From Actinomycetota bacterium (GTDB lineage: Bacteria; Actinomycetota; CADDZG01; WHSQ01), in the NCBI GenBank assembly GCA_009379915.1, contig WHSV01000028.1:1-37929 (forward strand): 37,929 nt of DNA. Reading direction: 5' to 3'. Of the stretch, positions 7,898 through 32,452 are shown in pieces; positions within the stretch are counted from its first letter, which is position 1; each line of letters starts with the position of its first letter. A program made the position numbers and the translations under genes. Below the pieces are notes generated by a model, which did not search any database, was not told the DNA's origin, and worked only from the letters and a program-made list of their open reading frames with translations.

Positions 7898-8646
7898 TAC
7901 TGCTCGGCCTCCCGGAGCGACCTTCCCGAGGGACCGATTTGGTGGATGCCGCATTCGGTCTTGTCCATGCCCTGCCACCGACCGGCCCGTTCGTCGGGGT
8001 CACTGGACGCCGTTGGGCTGGTGCAGGGCGCACATCCAATGGAGGCGAAGCCCTGCTCGAGCAGCGGGTGAGTAGGAATGTCGTGCTTGGCGAGGTATCG
8101 ACGGACGTCGGCTTTCGTCCAGTTCGCCAAGGGATGAATCTTGATGACGTCTCGACCCGACATCAATTCTTGGTCCTCGGCAATCGGTGTCCGGGAGCGA
8201 ATCTTTGACTGGTCTCGACGAAGCCCAGAAATCCAGCCGTCGTACTCCTCTAGTGCCCGCTGTAGCGGCTCGACCTTGTTGATGAAGCAGCATTGGTCGG
8301 GATTGCGCCGGTAGAGCTCGGAGCCGTAGGCGAGGTTCTGCTGGGCAACGCTGCCGTGCTTGCCGCGCAGGTGGACGAGGTTCAGGTCCCACATCTCGAC
8401 GATCCGGTCTTTGAACGCGATTGTTTCGTCGAAGTGGAAGCCTGTGTCGAGGAACAACACGGGCAGGTCCACTCGAATGCTCTGCAGCATGTGCAGCATC
8501 ACCAGACCCGATGACTGAAACGAAGTGGCGATGGCCAGACGTTCAACTGTCTTCGCGGCCCAACTCAGGATGTGGTGCGGGTGCGCGTTCTCGAGCGCGT
8601 CCAAGTCGACAATAGGAGCGGCGGCGTTGAGCTGCGCGATGTTCAC
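7897..8646 (-). CDS. cysH: Adenylyl-sulfate (APS) reductase, [4Fe-4S] type
   Basis: A 249-residue member of the PAPS/APS reductase family. It reduces activated sulfate to sulfite in assimilatory sulfate reduction, using thioredoxin. The four cluster cysteines that separate APS reductases from PAPS reductases are present as C119-C120 and C205-x2-C208. The catalytic cysteine is C232 in the motif KTECGIH. The nucleotide-binding start ATSFQSSG and the LDTGFHFDET block are typical. APS (EC 1.8.4.10) is therefore the better substrate call. The ATG overlaps the stop of the sulfite reductase gene by four bases, and the next gene overlaps its stop by one, so product stoichiometry is probably translationally coupled. 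Confidence 0.92.
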   Translation of the reverse strand: MNIAQLNAAAPIVDLDALENAHPHHILSWAAKTVERLAIATSFQSSGLVMLHMLQSIRVDLPVLFLDTGFHFDETIAFKDRIVEMWDLNLVHLRGKHGSVAQQNLAYGSELYRRNPDQCCFINKVEPLQRALEEYDGWISGLRRDQSKIRSRTPIAEDQELMSGRDVIKIHPLANWTKADVRRYLAKHDIPTHPLLEQGFASIGCAPCTSPTASSDPDERAGRWQGMDKTECGIHQIGPSGRSLREAEQ

Positions 8647-10370
8647 GACGCGCGCGCCTCCGCAAGGATCCCGGGTGCCGGAGGCAGGCCGACGAAGTCG
8701 GGCTTGGCGCCGAACTCGCTAAGCTCCGCATCGGTGAGCCGGTTGACGAAGGACGCAAACGTGTCGTTGTCGCGTCGGGATCTCGTGTAACGCCGAACAA
8801 GGGTCTCGACGTACGGGCCCAACTCGTTCCCGAGCACCTTCACGCCTCTAACCTTCCTTCCAAACGCGCGGTCCGACCCAAGCTGCCCGCCGAGATGCAC
8901 GAGAAAGGCTTCGACCTTCCGTTTGATCTCGATCGGGTGACCCGCCCCGTCGGTGGCGTGGGCGCGTTCGCTGACCTGACAACCCATCAATCCGATGTCT
9001 GCGGTCTGGTACCGAGCACAGGAGTTCGGACAACCGTTGACGTTGATGCGGATGTCTTCGTTGAAATCGGGGACGCTTTCCTCGAGGTAGCGGTAGAGCT
9101 CGGCGGCCCGCCCTTTCGTTTCGACGATGGCCAGCTTGCAGAACTCGATTCCCGTGCAGGCCATCGTTCCGCGTCGCCACGCACTGGCATCGACCGGCAG
9201 GTCCAACGCGGTTAGCTCGTCGATGAGTGAGGCGACGCTCTCTTCGGGCACGTCGAGGATTACCATTTTTTGCTGGGTCGTGGTTCGCATGCGGCCATTA
9301 CCGTACTTGCTGGCGAGGCGCGCCACGGCACTTAGCTGATGACCGGCGATCCGGCCGGTTTTGGGAGCGAAACCGACATAGTAGGAACCATCGTGCTGAG
9401 GCCATACTCCTGCGTGCTCTCTGTGGGACGTCGGGGAGGCGGGCGGTTCGTCGAGGTCGTCGAGGGCGAAGCCGATGGTCTCCTCGAGCACCGCTCGGAA
9501 GCGCTCGGCCCCCCAGTCCTTGACCAGGAACTTGAGCCGGGCTCGGTTTCGGGCCCTGCGGTACCCGTGGTCGCGAAAAACGGCCGTTACTCCAAGGACC
9601 ACGGGGACGACCCGCTCCGGGGGGACGAAGGCGCCCAGTCGCTGAGCGAACATCGGATTGGTCGAGAGGCCGCCCCCTACCCAGAGGTCGAATCCTCTCC
9701 GCCCGTCCGGGCGGACGGCCCCTACGAGGGCGAGGTCGTTCACCTCGTGCTGGCAGCATTGGTGGGCGCAGCCCGAGATCGAGATCTTGTACTTGCGGGG
9801 CAGGTTCGAGAACTCTGGGTTGCCCGCGAGCTTGGCGTTGGCCTCCAAAAGGACTTCGGATGCGTCGATCACCTCGGAAGCATCCACCCCCGCAAGGGGA
9901 CATCCGAGGATATTCCGGGGTGTATCTCCGCAAGCCTCGGTCGTGGAGAGGCCGACTCGCTCGAGCTCGCCCCATATCTCGGGCATGTGCTCGATGCGGA
10001 TCCAGTGGAGCTGGATGTTTTGGCGGTCGGTGACATCGGCGAGGTCGCGGCCGAATCGTCGAGACAGGCCCCCGATCACCGCCGTCTGCTCGCCCGTCAG
10101 CTGACCTCCGGGGATGCGAATGCGAAGCATGAAGTAGCCGTCTGACTCGGGCCGTTGGGTGTAGAGGCCGTGCCAGCGGAAGCGGTTGCGCAGGTCGCTG
10201 GGCCAGATCGAGCCGAAGCCCTCCTTGGCGTAGATGCGTTCGATCCGGGGACGGACGTTCAGGCCGTCGTCCTCGCGCTTCGCCTGCTCGGCGGGGTTGA
10301 GGGGCTCCCGGTAGCCGAGGGCCCACTGGCCCTCGGAGCGCTGAGACCTGGTGGCCGTCGGGGGGCTCAT
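8643..10370 (-). CDS. Ferredoxin-dependent assimilatory sulfite reductase (NirA/Sir family)
   Basis: A 575-residue sirohaem/[4Fe-4S] reductase. Two ferrite-like half domains and two sirohaem domains are seen. The cluster/sirohaem cysteines are C405-x5-C411 (ACTGIEFC) and C447-x3-C451 (NGCPNSC). A first-half relic motif SGCAHQCCQHE is also present. The family reduces sulfite or nitrite by six electrons from ferredoxin; the coupled APS reductase gene makes sulfite the likely substrate. No flavoprotein subunit is encoded nearby. The ATG at 10370 is chosen, since the extra 34 codons upstream (to 10472) are not family-like and overlap the promoter region. Sirohaem would come from the SUMT domain encoded at 18796. 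Confidence 0.88.
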   Translation of the reverse strand: MSPPTATRSQRSEGQWALGYREPLNPAEQAKREDDGLNVRPRIERIYAKEGFGSIWPSDLRNRFRWHGLYTQRPESDGYFMLRIRIPGGQLTGEQTAVIGGLSRRFGRDLADVTDRQNIQLHWIRIEHMPEIWGELERVGLSTTEACGDTPRNILGCPLAGVDASEVIDASEVLLEANAKLAGNPEFSNLPRKYKISISGCAHQCCQHEVNDLALVGAVRPDGRRGFDLWVGGGLSTNPMFAQRLGAFVPPERVVPVVLGVTAVFRDHGYRRARNRARLKFLVKDWGAERFRAVLEETIGFALDDLDEPPASPTSHREHAGVWPQHDGSYYVGFAPKTGRIAGHQLSAVARLASKYGNGRMRTTTQQKMVILDVPEESVASLIDELTALDLPVDASAWRRGTMACTGIEFCKLAIVETKGRAAELYRYLEESVPDFNEDIRINVNGCPNSCARYQTADIGLMGCQVSERAHATDGAGHPIEIKRKVEAFLVHLGGQLGSDRAFGRKVRGVKVLGNELGPYVETLVRRYTRSRRDNDTFASFVNRLTDAELSEFGAKPDFVGLPPAPGILAEARAS

Positions 10371-10414
10371 CGGGGTCGCCTCAGGGGATGATCGTGGCAC
10401 ACGGCAAAAATCCT

Positions 10415-10493
10415 TTGTTGATGGGCGGTCGCTCGGCGAACGGCTAGCAGGGCCGCGTTGCCCCGTCAACAAGTTTTCTACTGTGCAAACAGT
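10415..10493 (-). promoter_or_regulatory. Candidate operators in the sulfite reductase promoter/leader
   Basis: Two symmetric elements are present. ACTGTGCAAACAGT at 10480-10493 is a perfect palindrome (ACTGT-N4-ACAGT). TTGTTGATGGG at 10415-10425 pairs with CCCGTCAACAA at 10462-10472 (one mismatch), enclosing 36 bases. On the minus strand a TTGACG lies inside the outer arm, and TAGCCG follows after 17 bases, a possible -35/-10 pair. The regulator is not known. Confidence 0.4.
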
Positions 10494-12818: not shown

Positions 12819-12879
12819 TCCTCGGGTCCAAGCGTAAGAGACTTCGGCGAAATGTCCAGACCCAAACCGGGGCCGGGAG

Positions 12880-13125
12880 AAAACCGGCATCGAGACTGGC
12901 GAGTTGGTGGCCGGTGGGCTGGATCTGCCCGCTCCGGCCGGATTCTCGGGTCGGGCAGAGGCAAACCGGCATCGACGGGGGTGAGTTGGTGCAGGGAAGG
13001 CATGCGCCTGCCCGCTCCTGTTGTTCTCGGGCCTGGGAAAGGCAAAACCGGCATCGACGGGGGTGAGTTAGTGGGTGCTCGGGTAGATCTGCCCGCTCCG
13101 GGCGGGCAATTGGGTAGGCGTGGGC
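12880..13125 (+). repeat. Array A: three direct 82-bp repeats
   Basis: Three copies begin with (A)AAACCGGCATCGA at 12880, 12963 and 13044. The ACCGG cores start at 12883, 12965 and 13047, an exact 82-bp period. Each unit has a conserved head (AAACCGGCATCGACGGGGG, then TGAGTTGGTG) and a second conserved block (TCTGCCCGCTCC), with variable bases between. The first copy differs after ATCGA. Confidence 0.8.
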
Positions 13126-13130
13126 GCTCA

Positions 13131-13197
13131 CTCACCCGAGAGGGTGAGCACACGTCCGTAGCTTGGAACTCTCGACATTCAGCCACCGTTTCGGTGG
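13131..13197. repeat. Two perfect hairpins between the direct and inverted repeats
   Basis: CTCACCC-GAGA-GGGTGAG at 13131-13148 is a 7-bp stem with a GNRA-type tetraloop. CCACCG-TTT-CGGTGG at 13183-13197 is a 6-bp stem. Neither is followed by a T run. Together with the flanking repeats they fill the otherwise gene-free 12730-13462 interval. Confidence 0.5.
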
Positions 13198-13230
13198 GTT
13201 GAGGGTCGAACGTTCGCAGAATCCGCAATA

Positions 13231-13357
13231 GAGCGGGCACGAGAAGCCGAACAGCCGCCCACTTCCCCCTCCGGTGCTGGTTTGAGCCCGGCGGGACGAC
13301 GAGACCGGGCCCGAGAAGCCGAACGGCCGCCCACTTCCCCCGTCGATGCCCGGTTTT
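13231..13357 (-). repeat. Array A: two inverted 73-bp repeats
   Basis: On the minus strand two units begin AAAACCGGGCATCGACGGGGG (13357 downwards) and AAACCAGCACCGGAGGGGG (13283 downwards), 73 bp apart. They share a nearly identical continuation that on the plus strand reads GAGAAGCCGAACxGCCGCCC and ACTTCCCCC. The head matches the direct copies at 12880-13070 in opposite orientation. Confidence 0.75.
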
Positions 13358-29131: not shown

Positions 29132-29272
29132 TCAGGGGTGTGGCGGGCGACCCCGCAGCTCTTCCAATCGCCGGTTCAACACCCTCGTCCGCGCGCTTAT
29201 CGACAACAGGTAGCCGCCGATTCCTGCGCCCACGGCCAGAAACGCGACGACCATCCACGCGGTCGTGCTCAT
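29132..29272 (-). CDS. ccmD: CcmD-like haem exporter small subunit
   Basis: A 46-residue protein starting MSTTAWMVVAFLAVGAGIGG, with one membrane helix (about 5-25) and a charged C-terminus with LNRRLEELRG, the usual CcmD layout. CcmD stabilises holo-CcmE release from the CcmABC haem complex. The ATG overlaps the ccmC stop in an ATGA junction, which supports the call despite weak sequence conservation. Confidence 0.75.
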   Translation of the reverse strand: MSTTAWMVVAFLAVGAGIGGYLLSISARTRVLNRRLEELRGRPPHP

Positions 29273-30057
29273 GTCTCGCTCCCGGCCGGCCTTGGTGGGC
29301 GGCGGGGAGAGGGACCCGGATCTCGGACGCCCTCCACCGCGAGAGCCCTGGCTTCGACCTCGTCCGCCAGGCGACCCAGGCGGACGCGGATCGACAGCAG
29401 CCACGCGAACAGCAGAGTGAAAGCCCCCAGGGCCACAAAGAAGGTGGCCAGCTCGGGAGCTTCGAAGCCGGAGTTGTTGAGGGGGTCCGCCACCGTGGGA
29501 CCGACCGGATGAAGCGTCCTCCACCAGTTAACCGAGTAGTGCACGATCGGCACGTTGATGAATCCGACGATGCCGACGACGGCGGCCAGCCGGCCGCTGC
29601 GTGAGGGATCGGTCGACAGGCCCCGCAGCAGCAGGTACCCGACGTAGACGAGCCAGAGCACGAGGGTCGAGGTCAACCGAGCGTCCCACTGCCACCAGGT
29701 ACCCCAGATGGGACGAGCCCAGATCGGGCCGGTGATCAGAACGAGGCTGGTGAAGACTACGCCGACCTCGGCGGCCGAATGCGCCAGCAGGTCCCAGCGA
29801 CGGCTCTCCGTTCGCAGGTACGCGATGGAGCACACGAAAACGATCGCGAAGGACAGATATGCGAGCCAGGCCGAGGGTACGTGCACGTAGAAGATCTTCT
29901 GGATTGGCCCGTTGAAGTCGTCGACGCGGGCGACGAACAACATCATCCCCAGGGCCACCGCCACCGAGGCCCAGGCCGCGGCGCCGAGGGATCTGACCTT
30001 TGCGGAGTCCGCGGTTCGAGTCTCGGGGCCGGGCGTCGAAGCGTTGCTAGAGCTCAC
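29269..30057 (-). CDS. ccmC: Haem exporter/lyase subunit CcmC
   Basis: A 262-residue membrane protein with six predicted helices. The tryptophan-rich haem-handling motif WGTWWQWDARLTS is at 118-130, and the two flanking periplasmic histidines are in YVHVPSAW (H59) and NVPIVHYSVNWW. CcmC loads haem on CcmE in System I cytochrome c maturation. The C-terminal Arg/Pro-rich tail is longer than usual. The GTG is 7 bp after a TAGGCT -10-like box (30064-30069), so ccmCD may have its own leaderless promoter, apart from the upstream ccm genes and separated from them by a repeat array. Confidence 0.9.
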   Translation of the reverse strand: MSSSNASTPGPETRTADSAKVRSLGAAAWASVAVALGMMLFVARVDDFNGPIQKIFYVHVPSAWLAYLSFAIVFVCSIAYLRTESRRWDLLAHSAAEVGVVFTSLVLITGPIWARPIWGTWWQWDARLTSTLVLWLVYVGYLLLRGLSTDPSRSGRLAAVVGIVGFINVPIVHYSVNWWRTLHPVGPTVADPLNNSGFEAPELATFFVALGAFTLLFAWLLSIRVRLGRLADEVEARALAVEGVRDPGPSPRRPPRPAGSET

Positions 30058-30076
30058 GGGCCAAGCCTACCCACCG

Positions 30077-30299
30077 CCGGCCGGTAGGGGGCCGGGGGAC
30101 TTGTGGGGGGGGCCGGGTTGGGCGCGCCCGCTCTGGTCGGTCTGTGGTGGGCCAGAACCGGCAGCGAAGGGGGACTTGGGTGGGGCCGGATTGGGCGCGC
30201 CCCTCGAGTTGGTCTGTGGTGGGCCAGAACCGGCAGCGAAGGGGAAGGGGGTGGGGCCGGGTTGGGCGCGCCCGCTCCGGTCGGTCTGTGGAGGAATGG
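30077..30299 (+). repeat. Array B: three direct 72-bp repeats
   Basis: Copies centred on AGAACCGGCAGCGAAGGGG begin at 30155 and 30227, exactly 72 bp apart, and a more divergent copy precedes them (from about 30077). Each contains GGGCCGGxTTGGGCGCGCCC and GTCTGTGGTGGGCCAG. The head ACCGGCAGCGAAGGGGG and the later GCCCGCTC block correspond to those of the 82-bp units at 12.9 kb, so the arrays appear homologous. Confidence 0.75.
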
Positions 30300-30390
30300 C
30301 TTCGGTGAGCGGGGTTGAATCTCCGGAGAGTGATGGAGTGGCTGATCTGGCGGGACGGAGCCCGTCCCAGCTCGAACTCTGGTGAAATCT

Positions 30391-30405
30391 GCCCGGTAAC
30401 CGGGC
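30391..30405. repeat. 15-bp palindrome in the ccmC upstream region
   Basis: GCCCGGT-A-ACCGGGC is a perfect palindrome about 335 bp upstream of ccmC. No function is evident. The surrounding 30300-30440 holds nothing else that I recognise. Confidence 0.35.
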
Positions 30406-30440
30406 ACGGATGCCCGGAGTTGTCCTTGGTTCCGATTCAA

Positions 30441-30521
30441 AGCGGCGCGCAGACCCACAGGAGCGGGAGGATCGGGCCCGGCCCCCGGCCCCCGTGATTC
30501 CTCCCTTAGATGCCGGGGTTT
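30441..30521 (-). repeat. Array B: inverted repeat copy
   Basis: On the minus strand, just after the M15 peptidase gene, the sequence starts AAACCCCGGCATCTAAGGG and continues to CGATCCTCCCGCTCCTG and GTGGGTCTGC. It shares the AAACC-GGCATC head and the CCCGCTCC block of the repeat family but points opposite to the three copies at 30077-30299. It is more diverged than the other copies. Confidence 0.5.
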
Positions 30522-30540
30522 GCCTTTGACTTTGCCTTGC

Positions 30541-31707
30541 CTAGCCGGTCTCGACCAGGCTGCCCAGCTCGAAGTGCATCGGGTCGGGTCTCGACCAGTC
30601 CCCGCCCCACACGAAGCCCCATCGCTCGAAGATCTCGACGATGCGGGGGTTCATGTCTCCTTCGGTCCCGAGCTGGTTGGTCGAGACGTTGAGGTCGACG
30701 GCGAGACCGAAGGCGTGCATCGAGAGCGGCAGCGACGGGTTCCGGTCGATGAAGCGAGGCACGTAGCACCCGCCGTAGTCGCCGGGCCTCAGCTCGCCGC
30801 CGAGCCCGCGGCTCTCGATCTCGCTCAGTGCAGCCTGAAGCTGAGGAAGCATCAAGCGGTGACAGCTAACGTCGCCGATGATCGAGACGGTGGCCGTCGA
30901 GATGTTGCTGTCGACCCACGCCTGCTCCGGCTTGATGAAGCCGTCGTCGCGGACCTTGTAGTTCATCGTGCCGATGATGCCCCCGCCGGAGCTGCCGTCC
31001 TCGATCGCTCCCGTGAGGGGATCGGGATTCGACATGAGGTCGGGCGGAATCAGGGGGACCAACCTCGCGCCGGGTAGCTCGTCTGACAGCGCGGTCCCCA
31101 GCGCGTCGAGCGAGGTGCCGGGTTGCACCCCCACCGTGAGGACCTGATCGCTGGCGTCCCCGATCTGCCCACCGACGTTCGAGTCGATCATGACGTCCGC
31201 GATGTTCGGCGTCTGATTATCGGCGAACGCACCCACCTCCACGTCTCGGCCCCCGTCCAGTTCGATGGTGCCGCCGCCCTCGATGCCCAGGTCCTCGGCC
31301 GCTTCGAAGGTGAGCACGGCCTCGCCGCTCAACATCGAGGTCCAGACGAACTCGGCCTCGTTGGTGGCAACCGGAGCGATCGACCGGTAATCCAGCGCGT
31401 CCACGGTCGCGATCCTGAGGTTCTTGGTCCCCTCCGGTCCCGACACCTCCAACTTCTGGACGGACGCGGCAACGACGACGCTCACCCCGTCGACGCCCTT
31501 CAGGCGCTCGACCGTTTCTTCGTCGACCGGCTCGTCGGGAGAGATGAGGTACGCGGGGGTTGCGTCGACCGGGTCGGGGAGCGAGATCCCTCCCTCCGAG
31601 GAGGCCTCGCTCAGCAGCTCGTCGGCCGGAGGCGCGTCGGTCCCATCGCTCCCGCAAGCGGCCGGAGCGAGCAGAACCAGGAAGGAGATAACCAGGAGCT
31701 TTTTCAT
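30541..31707 (-). CDS. Lipoprotein with C-terminal peptidase M15 (D,D-carboxypeptidase-like) domain
   Basis: A 388-residue exported protein. MKKLLVISFLVLLAPAAC is a lipoprotein-type signal with Cys18. Residues about 60-225 form a non-catalytic domain whose pattern (VERLKGVDGVSVVVA … LDYRSIAP … DVMIDSNVG … LPGARLVPLIPPDL) recalls the periplasmic domain of MacB/FtsX-type proteins. Residues about 255-388 are an M15 zinc peptidase: SMHAFGLAVDLN gives H331 and D338, and DPMHFEL gives H378. Such enzymes cut peptidoglycan cross-links or stem peptides. The gene lies 19 bp after ccmB inside the ccm operon, which is not a usual place. The start 31707 fits the signal peptide; the frame is open to 31782. 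Confidence 0.8.
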   Translation of the reverse strand: MKKLLVISFLVLLAPAACGSDGTDAPPADELLSEASSEGGISLPDPVDATPAYLISPDEPVDEETVERLKGVDGVSVVVAASVQKLEVSGPEGTKNLRIATVDALDYRSIAPVATNEAEFVWTSMLSGEAVLTFEAAEDLGIEGGGTIELDGGRDVEVGAFADNQTPNIADVMIDSNVGGQIGDASDQVLTVGVQPGTSLDALGTALSDELPGARLVPLIPPDLMSNPDPLTGAIEDGSSGGGIIGTMNYKVRDDGFIKPEQAWVDSNISTATVSIIGDVSCHRLMLPQLQAALSEIESRGLGGELRPGDYGGCYVPRFIDRNPSLPLSMHAFGLAVDLNVSTNQLGTEGDMNPRIVEIFERWGFVWGGDWSRPDPMHFELGSLVETG

Positions 31708-31726
31708 GGACCGCCTGAATCGATCA

Positions 31727-32452
31727 TCAGTCGACTGCGAATTCGAACGCCAAGGCCCCCACCGTAACGAAAACCAGATCAAACAGGAGCAGTATGCCGA
31801 ACCAACCTCTGGCGGCGACCGCCCCGAGCCCCCCGCCTGCGAACAGATCCGACGTGAGCTCCACGGCCGCGATGAAGATCGGCACCAGGGACGGGAGGGC
31901 TAGGACCGGGAGAATCAGCTCCCTGCTGCGGGTCTGAGCGGCGAGAGATGCGAACAGGGTGCCGATGGCGACGAACCCGATATCGACGAGCGCGATGACG
32001 AGCACTAGCACCAACCAGTCCGCTCCCAATTCCAAGGTGAAGAACAGTGTGAACACCGGGACCAGAACGATCTCTACGACCGCGATGTAGACGAGGTTGC
32101 TCAAGGCCTTTGCGGCAAAGAGGCCCGAGCGATCGAGTGGAACCAAGAGGAGGGCATCGAGCGCTCCGTCCGCGCGCTCGACTTCGAACGTGCGCGCGAA
32201 ACCAATCAAGCCCGCAAAGAGAATCGTGATCCACAGAAACCCTGCGATGACGTCGGCGAGCGCAACCGTTCCGATGGGAACCTCCACGACGTCCTGCATG
32301 ACCGCGTTCCCGGGAAGAGAGAACGCGAGCAATAGGGCGACGGTCAAGCAAAACGCGAGCATGGGTGGCAGCGTGTCGCGGGCGCGTGTCTCAACGAGCA
32401 GATCCTTGCGAATCAACAGAGTTGTCTTCGCGACGAATCCCCGTTCCGCCAT
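31727..32452 (-). CDS. ccmB: Haem exporter ABC permease CcmB
   Basis: A 241-residue protein with six predicted helices. KTTLLIRKDLLVETRARDTL at the N-terminus, FARTFEVERADGALDALLLVPLDRSGLFAAKAL in the cytoplasmic loop and SRELILPVLALPSLVPIFIA are typical of CcmB. With CcmA it forms the ABC transporter that releases holo-CcmE from CcmC. Its start codon overlaps the last base of the ccmA stop codon (TAATG), so the two are translationally coupled. Confidence 0.92.
   Translation of the reverse strand: MAERGFVAKTTLLIRKDLLVETRARDTLPPMLAFCLTVALLLAFSLPGNAVMQDVVEVPIGTVALADVIAGFLWITILFAGLIGFARTFEVERADGALDALLLVPLDRSGLFAAKALSNLVYIAVVEIVLVPVFTLFFTLELGADWLVLVLVIALVDIGFVAIGTLFASLAAQTRSRELILPVLALPSLVPIFIAAVELTSDLFAGGGLGAVAARGWFGILLLFDLVFVTVGALAFEFAVD

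Follow-up and report, generated by a model that had tools for sequence, protein, structure and literature searches.

Array B and its surroundings

The window analyzed here is one whole contig (G000:C8, 37,929 nucleotides) of a 3.39-Mb genome that is assembled in 158 contigs and is 95% complete. Within this contig, a ccmC-like cytochrome c assembly gene and an M15 peptidase gene are separated by 483 nt in which no gene was called (30058-30540), and this gap is occupied by array B, a stretch of about 440 bp (30078-30521) that consists of three plus-strand repeat units, a core and one inverted unit. A related array in the same contig (array A, 12879-13357) is flanked by a Crp-family gene on the minus strand and a GntR gene on the plus strand. 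Genes were called with our own codon-usage script, and results that rest on these calls should be taken with caution; repeat units were scored with R1, a sequence-only profile of the unit. The features of the two loci are the following:

12879-13124, plus strand: array A left arm, three units (12879, 12961, 13043) with a period of 82 (TRF, R1)
13125-13226, no strand: array A core of type III with two hairpins (z -3.11 for the RNA fold of 13098-13233)
13227-13357, minus strand: array A right arm, two units with head ends at 13357 and 13285 (R1 E 9.5e-12 and 3.5e-11)
29269-30057, minus strand: ccmC-like cytochrome c assembly gene, start towards the left arm of array B (Pfam PF01578, E 2.9e-37)
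30078-30152, plus strand: array B unit 1, left arm, degraded head at about 30078-30104 (72-bp register; boundary approximate)
30153-30224, plus strand: array B unit 2, intact head at 30155-30173 (R1 E 1.3e-5)
30225-30296, plus strand: array B unit 3, intact head at 30227-30245 (R1 E 2.8e-8)
30297-30458, no strand: array B core, short GC hairpins, folding unexceptional (DNA fold z -0.93)
30459-30521, minus strand: array B inverted unit, right arm, diverged, head end at 30521, inner boundary approximate (R1 E 0.008; 8.8 bits against a shuffle maximum of 7.4)
30541-31782, minus strand: M15 peptidase gene, stop 19 nt from the right-arm head (Pfam PF13539, E 5.1e-16)

TRF delineates the tandem part of array B at 30094-30291 (period 72, 2.7 copies), and a separate repeat search recovered three copies at spacings of 72 and 72, along with inverted arms at 30253-30288 and 30450-30485. 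The first-pass annotation had described both arrays as three plus-strand units followed by an inverted part. This holds for the unit bodies, of which array B has three, but the intact head AGAACCGGCAGCGAAGGGG is present in only two of them; likewise, the direct-then-inverted layout is common to both arrays, but array A contains two minus-strand units and array B only one. That one was annotated as a diverged copy and is indeed only a weak R1 match. Elsewhere in the window, the protein encoded at 8643-10472 has as its nearest solved structure chain 1zj8, which we take to be NirA of Mycobacterium tuberculosis.

The high GC content and the G-runs of these regions raise the possibility that the likeness of the two arrays arose by chance, the outcome that the first-pass annotation had singled out as fatal to its proposal. 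The plus-strand parts of arrays A and B align with a local score of 45, compared to a mean of 12.6 (sd 1.89) and a maximum of 20 among 500 dinucleotide shuffles of B, and the opposite-strand control scores 9, within its own shuffles. Scores above the respective shuffle maxima were obtained also for the minus units of A against the plus units of B (25, maximum 19), for the two arms of A (24, maximum 17) and for the two arms of B (19, maximum 17); the plus units of A against the minus unit of B score 12, below the shuffle maximum of 15. These alignments suggest that the minus units, too, are mostly members of the family. A profile of 37 units, all located outside this contig, matches array B at 18.4, 14.4 and 8.8 bits, compared to a top score of 7.4 among 1000 shuffled versions of the region; a fourth match, at 2.3 bits, is not above this maximum. 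The genome scan that had been proposed for the shared head found it, with at most one mismatch, at 37 places (20 forward, 17 reverse), compared to none for the reversed pattern. With the shuffles exceeded, the reversed-pattern control empty and no matches in relatives (see below), chance similarity of GC-rich sequence was rejected, and we give it practically no credence; within the family, array B counts as a diverged copy.

A dispersed family with a fixed convergent layout

Across the genome, R1 detects at least 146 units at E<=1 and at least 115 at E<=0.01; these counts are lower bounds because only the best 150 of the 2812 first-look candidates were scored. The 115 units group into 68 clusters in the 3.4-Mb genome, in line with the earlier suggestion of a real element class, and the change of orientation noticed in the two arrays turns out to be a general rule. 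All 18 neighboring opposite pairs are in the order plus then minus, with none in the order minus then plus (two-sided sign test, ~8e-6), and at E<=1 this is the case for 26 of the 27 pairs. Thus, the complete loci are fold-back elements, each consisting of one to three plus units, a core and one to three minus units; layouts with tandem units in inverted arms include +++--, ++--, ++- and +--. Tandem units mostly recur every 63-87 nt, although two pairs are further apart (150 and 254). Because 38 of the 68 clusters are single units and 12 more contain units of a single orientation only, two-armed loci are a minority at E<=0.01; some of the remaining clusters have a diverged far arm that is recognizable from weaker matches and the type I alignment. 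Six clusters (on C17, C26, C80, C85, C106 and C151) are no more than 300 nt away from the end of their contig, as expected for repeats in a draft assembly. Contigs C16 and C26 share 111 identical overlapping bases (C16:6213-6323 and C26:1-111) and probably join inside one repeat element.

The family's repeat units, AAAACCGGCATCGA units, comprise, in an alignment of 45 of them, a conserved head, a variable middle and a conserved GCCCGCTC box; the outermost box is AAAACCGGCATCGAnGGGGG, and GCCCGCTC follows about 25-30 nt further inward. The outer heads (n=79) retain AAAACCGGCATCGAnGGGGG, conservation drops within a few bases beyond it, and the terminus of the element is AAAACCGG. The elements are GC-rich, not AT-rich with TA ends as is usual, though not universal, among MITEs. 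The covariation among units that the first-pass annotation had suggested looking for does not materialize: RNAalifold predicts no pairs in the 45 aligned units, nor are the units palindromic. Hence the units are conserved as sequence and not as structure, with the hairpins confined to the cores, and a structured-RNA unit was ruled out. The mean identity is 0.73 between units of the same arm (18 pairs), 0.61 between units of different loci (955 pairs) and 0.56 between units of opposite arms (17 pairs); since units of the same arm are more alike, the two ends are taken to be different end types that multiplied separately.

The closest relationship between loci is that of array A and an element on contig C26, which are 83% identical across 477 nt, in an alignment that starts just past the stop of one C26 gene and ends close to that of the other. 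Units at matching positions in the two loci are more alike (0.76-0.95 identical) than neighbors within one arm (0.69-0.70), which argues that the tandem array is older than the copying and was copied as a whole. Judging from this alignment, array A and the C26 array represent one composite, and whole composites were copied between loci. At C26:4105-4130 (L069), the left gene has its stop codon at the position expected for the head of the first unit, and the C26 element may have supplied the end of this gene. Because copies are mostly 65-80% alike, with 83% the best case, no recent move is seen.

Several core types, mostly hairpin-bearing, share the family ends. Elements of type I can be aligned along their full length of about 300 bp, with common ends that have GGCATCGAnGGGG in inverted orientation, and contain two hairpins, H1 (TTCGACC...GGTCGAA) and H2 (TGGTCG-n-CGACCA); the type III core is found in array A, C26, C109 and C129. 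The type I stems are mostly invariant, with changes on both sides in 4 of the 36 predicted pairs, so that covariation says little here. No Rfam match above the gathering score was found in the window, and none on the repeats in 12 element loci; an FMN riboswitch (L074:3953-4129, plus strand) and a glmS ribozyme (L072:2819-2976, minus strand) lie near two elements, outside the repeats. Two other repeated sequences were encountered. A 116-bp segment, 98% identical between C142:27206-27321 and C16:6126-6241 (L157 and L068), has the appearance of a short insert distinct from the elements that moved recently, the C142 copy of which sits within the H1 hairpin loop of a type I element; a 956-nt segment, 64% similar between C73:19392-20293 and C119:9160-10086, is inverted between the two loci and lies outside the repeats.

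Hairpin H1 occurs in both orientations, in each case 20-23 nt inside the unit. Classed against a single typed reference with a margin of 2 points, it points one way in nine elements (C11, C18, C33, C46, C101, C109, C121, C142 and C154_26936) and the other way in eight (C48, C73, C82, C94 twice, C128, C129 and C149), with C118_11647 ambiguous; this set leaves out six of 24 rows (C8, C26, C66, C106, C118_6888 and C154_5986) that were judged not to contain the type I H1. We considered a novel type of mobile DNA in bacteria in which hairpin-ended elements replicate as single strands, with tandemly multiplied ends, a flip-flop of H1 and a recombinase acting in trans that targets sites behind stops. 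If so, H1 would flip during copying and be found about half each way at the same offset. The best tree has at least 4 orientation changes, compared to a shuffled mean of 5.3, and its starred branches force only 1, so that repeated flipping is not shown; palindromes can flip via template switching, and H1 in both orientations therefore needs no special enzyme. We regard this scheme as very unlikely. The two orientations of H1 at one position, together with the two-box unit devoid of structure and the tandem multiplication of units, are also compatible with binding or recombination sites of a chromosome-organizing or site-specific recombination system that are not transposon ends; but multi-unit composites were copied whole, cores included, and we consider this explanation unlikely as well.

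Gene context and phyletic distribution

The placement of the elements relative to genes is asymmetric. Counting outer heads directed at a called gene (score>=20), 50 point towards a stop and 36 towards a start; for 30 of the 50 stop-facing heads, the stop codon is no more than 45 nt away (median 33), compared to 1 of the 36 start-facing heads within the same distance of the start. This bias may reflect either targeting or survival, which the data do not separate. In the gene-order tally, which covers 75 clusters at E<=0.05, 66 are flanked by called genes at either end, namely 19 between convergent, 31 between co-directional and 16 between divergent genes; the other 9 have no flanking gene at one end. 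The median gap between co-directional genes is 472 (++) or 483 (--) with an element and 42 or 48 without one. The midpoints of 9 of the 68 clusters fall in an accepted ORF, and several of these nine ORFs look over-extended; in C128, C154 and C94, genes occur between units.

Such positions suggest an alternative in which the repeats are functional 3'-end RNA elements (bidirectional terminators, attenuators or hairpins that stabilize mRNA) that were duplicated and are selected behind genes, and are not selfish. Consistent with this possibility, the cores fold better than shuffled sequences on average (mean z -2.0, 12 of 26 below -2), and convergent arms could pair in the transcript of either gene. 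However, divergent gene pairs host about as many clusters (16 of 66) as convergent ones (19), the units have no predicted structure, terminator-like sites are not in evident excess (one against 0.5 expected), and the family is missing from all relatives examined. For array B as a whole, the fold z values are only -2.12 and -1.70, and its core (30277-30461, RNA fold z -1.18) does not stand out among the cores. An RNA function of this kind thus seems rather unlikely to us.

A ccmC match was detected in 22 of 23 relatives, and 1 of the 22 has the same gene pair, allowing an empty-site comparison. This genome (G009, locus L166; same family, other genus) has the order ccmB-M15-ccmC, with 39 nt from the M15 stop to the ccmC start, compared to 483 nt here; array B is therefore interpreted as an insertion, relative to this one relative. 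Among the relatives examined, over loci of about 1.5 kb on each side, G009 alone has the M15 peptidase gene between ccmB and ccmC. For array A, no good GntR orthologue was available for an analogous comparison (1 of 15 relatives, at 26% identity).

All relatives compared belong to other genera, none being from the same genus. R1 finds no units at E<=0.01 in 40 relatives and none at E<=0.001 in 23 members of the class, the two sets of genomes being partly the same. Similarly, R2, a profile of the type I core, matches many loci in this genome (best E 1.8e-29), while 16 relatives yielded no match with E under 0.1. When 84,980 species, a set from which the present genome may be missing, were scanned for an exact 19-mer, 6 single matches turned up in unrelated bacteria and were taken as chance; viral contigs had none, and there were no matches of array B to plasmids or of array A to phages. 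At the level of sequence comparison, then, the family is real, dispersed and absent from the relatives examined.

Known systems and a probable mobile element

Dispersed extragenic repeats in many copies and mixed orientation, located behind genes and accompanied by hairpins, are characteristic of REP/BIME or REPIN systems moved by a RAYT (Y1 tyrosine transposase), and the present family shares these features. It differs in that its units are not palindromes and have a period of mostly 63-87 nt, in that their order is convergent only and not alternating, and in that PF01797 has 0 matches in this 95% complete genome, with the control positive in 5 of 14 genomes. Such a system is largely refuted and, in our assessment, highly improbable. 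The ends of Mu and Tn7 contain several direct-repeat transposase-binding sites (~22 bp), the two ends being mutually inverted, and these elements carry genes. The present elements resemble them in the direct repeats at each end and the mutual inversion of the ends, but have longer units, and the two rve genes in the genome have no units in the surrounding loci. The search for a partner enzyme (PF01797, PF00665 and PF01609) yielded no Y1_Tnp and no DDE_Tnp_1 matches.

In overall organization, the family has parallels in eukaryotes. Foldback elements and Galileo, as described in PMC3573991, have inverted arms with internal tandem repeats, the number of which varies by arm and copy, and many copies consist of arms only; for Galileo of Drosophila, that account gives up to three tandem repeats in the inverted ends and reports secondary transposase-binding sites. 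The elements described here are bacterial and about 0.2-0.5 kb long, with shorter units, and the comparison is one of organization and not of sequence. Among bacterial repeats, the RUP, Correia/NEMIS and ERIC MITEs are similarly short, non-coding, intergenic and dispersed, with inverted ends and hairpins, but in the description available from PMC2229807 they have an AT-rich sequence, TA termini and target duplications, whereas the present elements are GC-rich, with no target duplications found and with tandem terminal units. The CIR elements of Caulobacter, compared by their description in the same source, have two inverted arms and a linker, are likewise not fully MITE-like, and are described without tandem terminal units. 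In Streptococcus pneumoniae, BOX elements are likewise intergenic and modular, and the number of their tandem modules varies; according to the portion of PMC3049150 that deals with them, it is the middle module, boxB, that is multiplied, and the order boxA-boxB(n)-boxC does not apply here, where the tandem modules are terminal, inverted and present at both ends. A search of the mostly open-access literature found no bacterial MITE-like family with tandem terminal units in both inverted arms and no description of the present family. The tandem terminal units in both arms, the position right behind stops and the core hairpin in both orientations are unusual.

The best fit is a transposon-like element that is moved in trans, because the ends are defined and inverted, the elements are copied whole, and array B is absent at the orthologous site. 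We therefore consider it probable that array B is one copy of a lineage-specific, non-coding, fold-back, MITE-like family of mobile elements. Of the features of MITEs, the family displays terminal inverted repeats (the convergent units and the type I ends), short non-coding dispersed copies (the 68 clusters) and, at one site, insertion where a relative is empty. We infer that movement is driven by a transposase, with the boxes as protein-binding sites. Each end would consist of a terminal unit with two boxes, single or in 2-3 tandem copies, the ends facing each other around a core, and a putative transposase or recombinase supplied in trans would bind the two-box unit as the end signal; the extra tandem units could be additional binding sites or products of slippage. 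Copies of the whole composite would then enter intergenic sites, in most cases directly after a stop codon, where their presence is tolerated. Several observations count against mobility, namely, the GC-rich composition, the lack of a partner enzyme in the three families searched, the divergence of array B, the limitation of the empty-site comparison to 1 of 22 relatives, the apparent absence of recent moves and the lack of a target-site duplication (among 26 complete elements, 5.0 for own flanks and 5.01 for swapped flanks); such duplications were possibly lost by decay, the copies being old.

If these elements move, a foldback organization known from fruit flies would have arisen in bacteria as well. 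At the M15 peptidase-ccmC site and elsewhere, they put hundreds of base pairs between genes, which in this case are adjacent in a relative, and this site could serve as a test bed for the effects of extra end sites and palindromes on transposition and 3'-end control.
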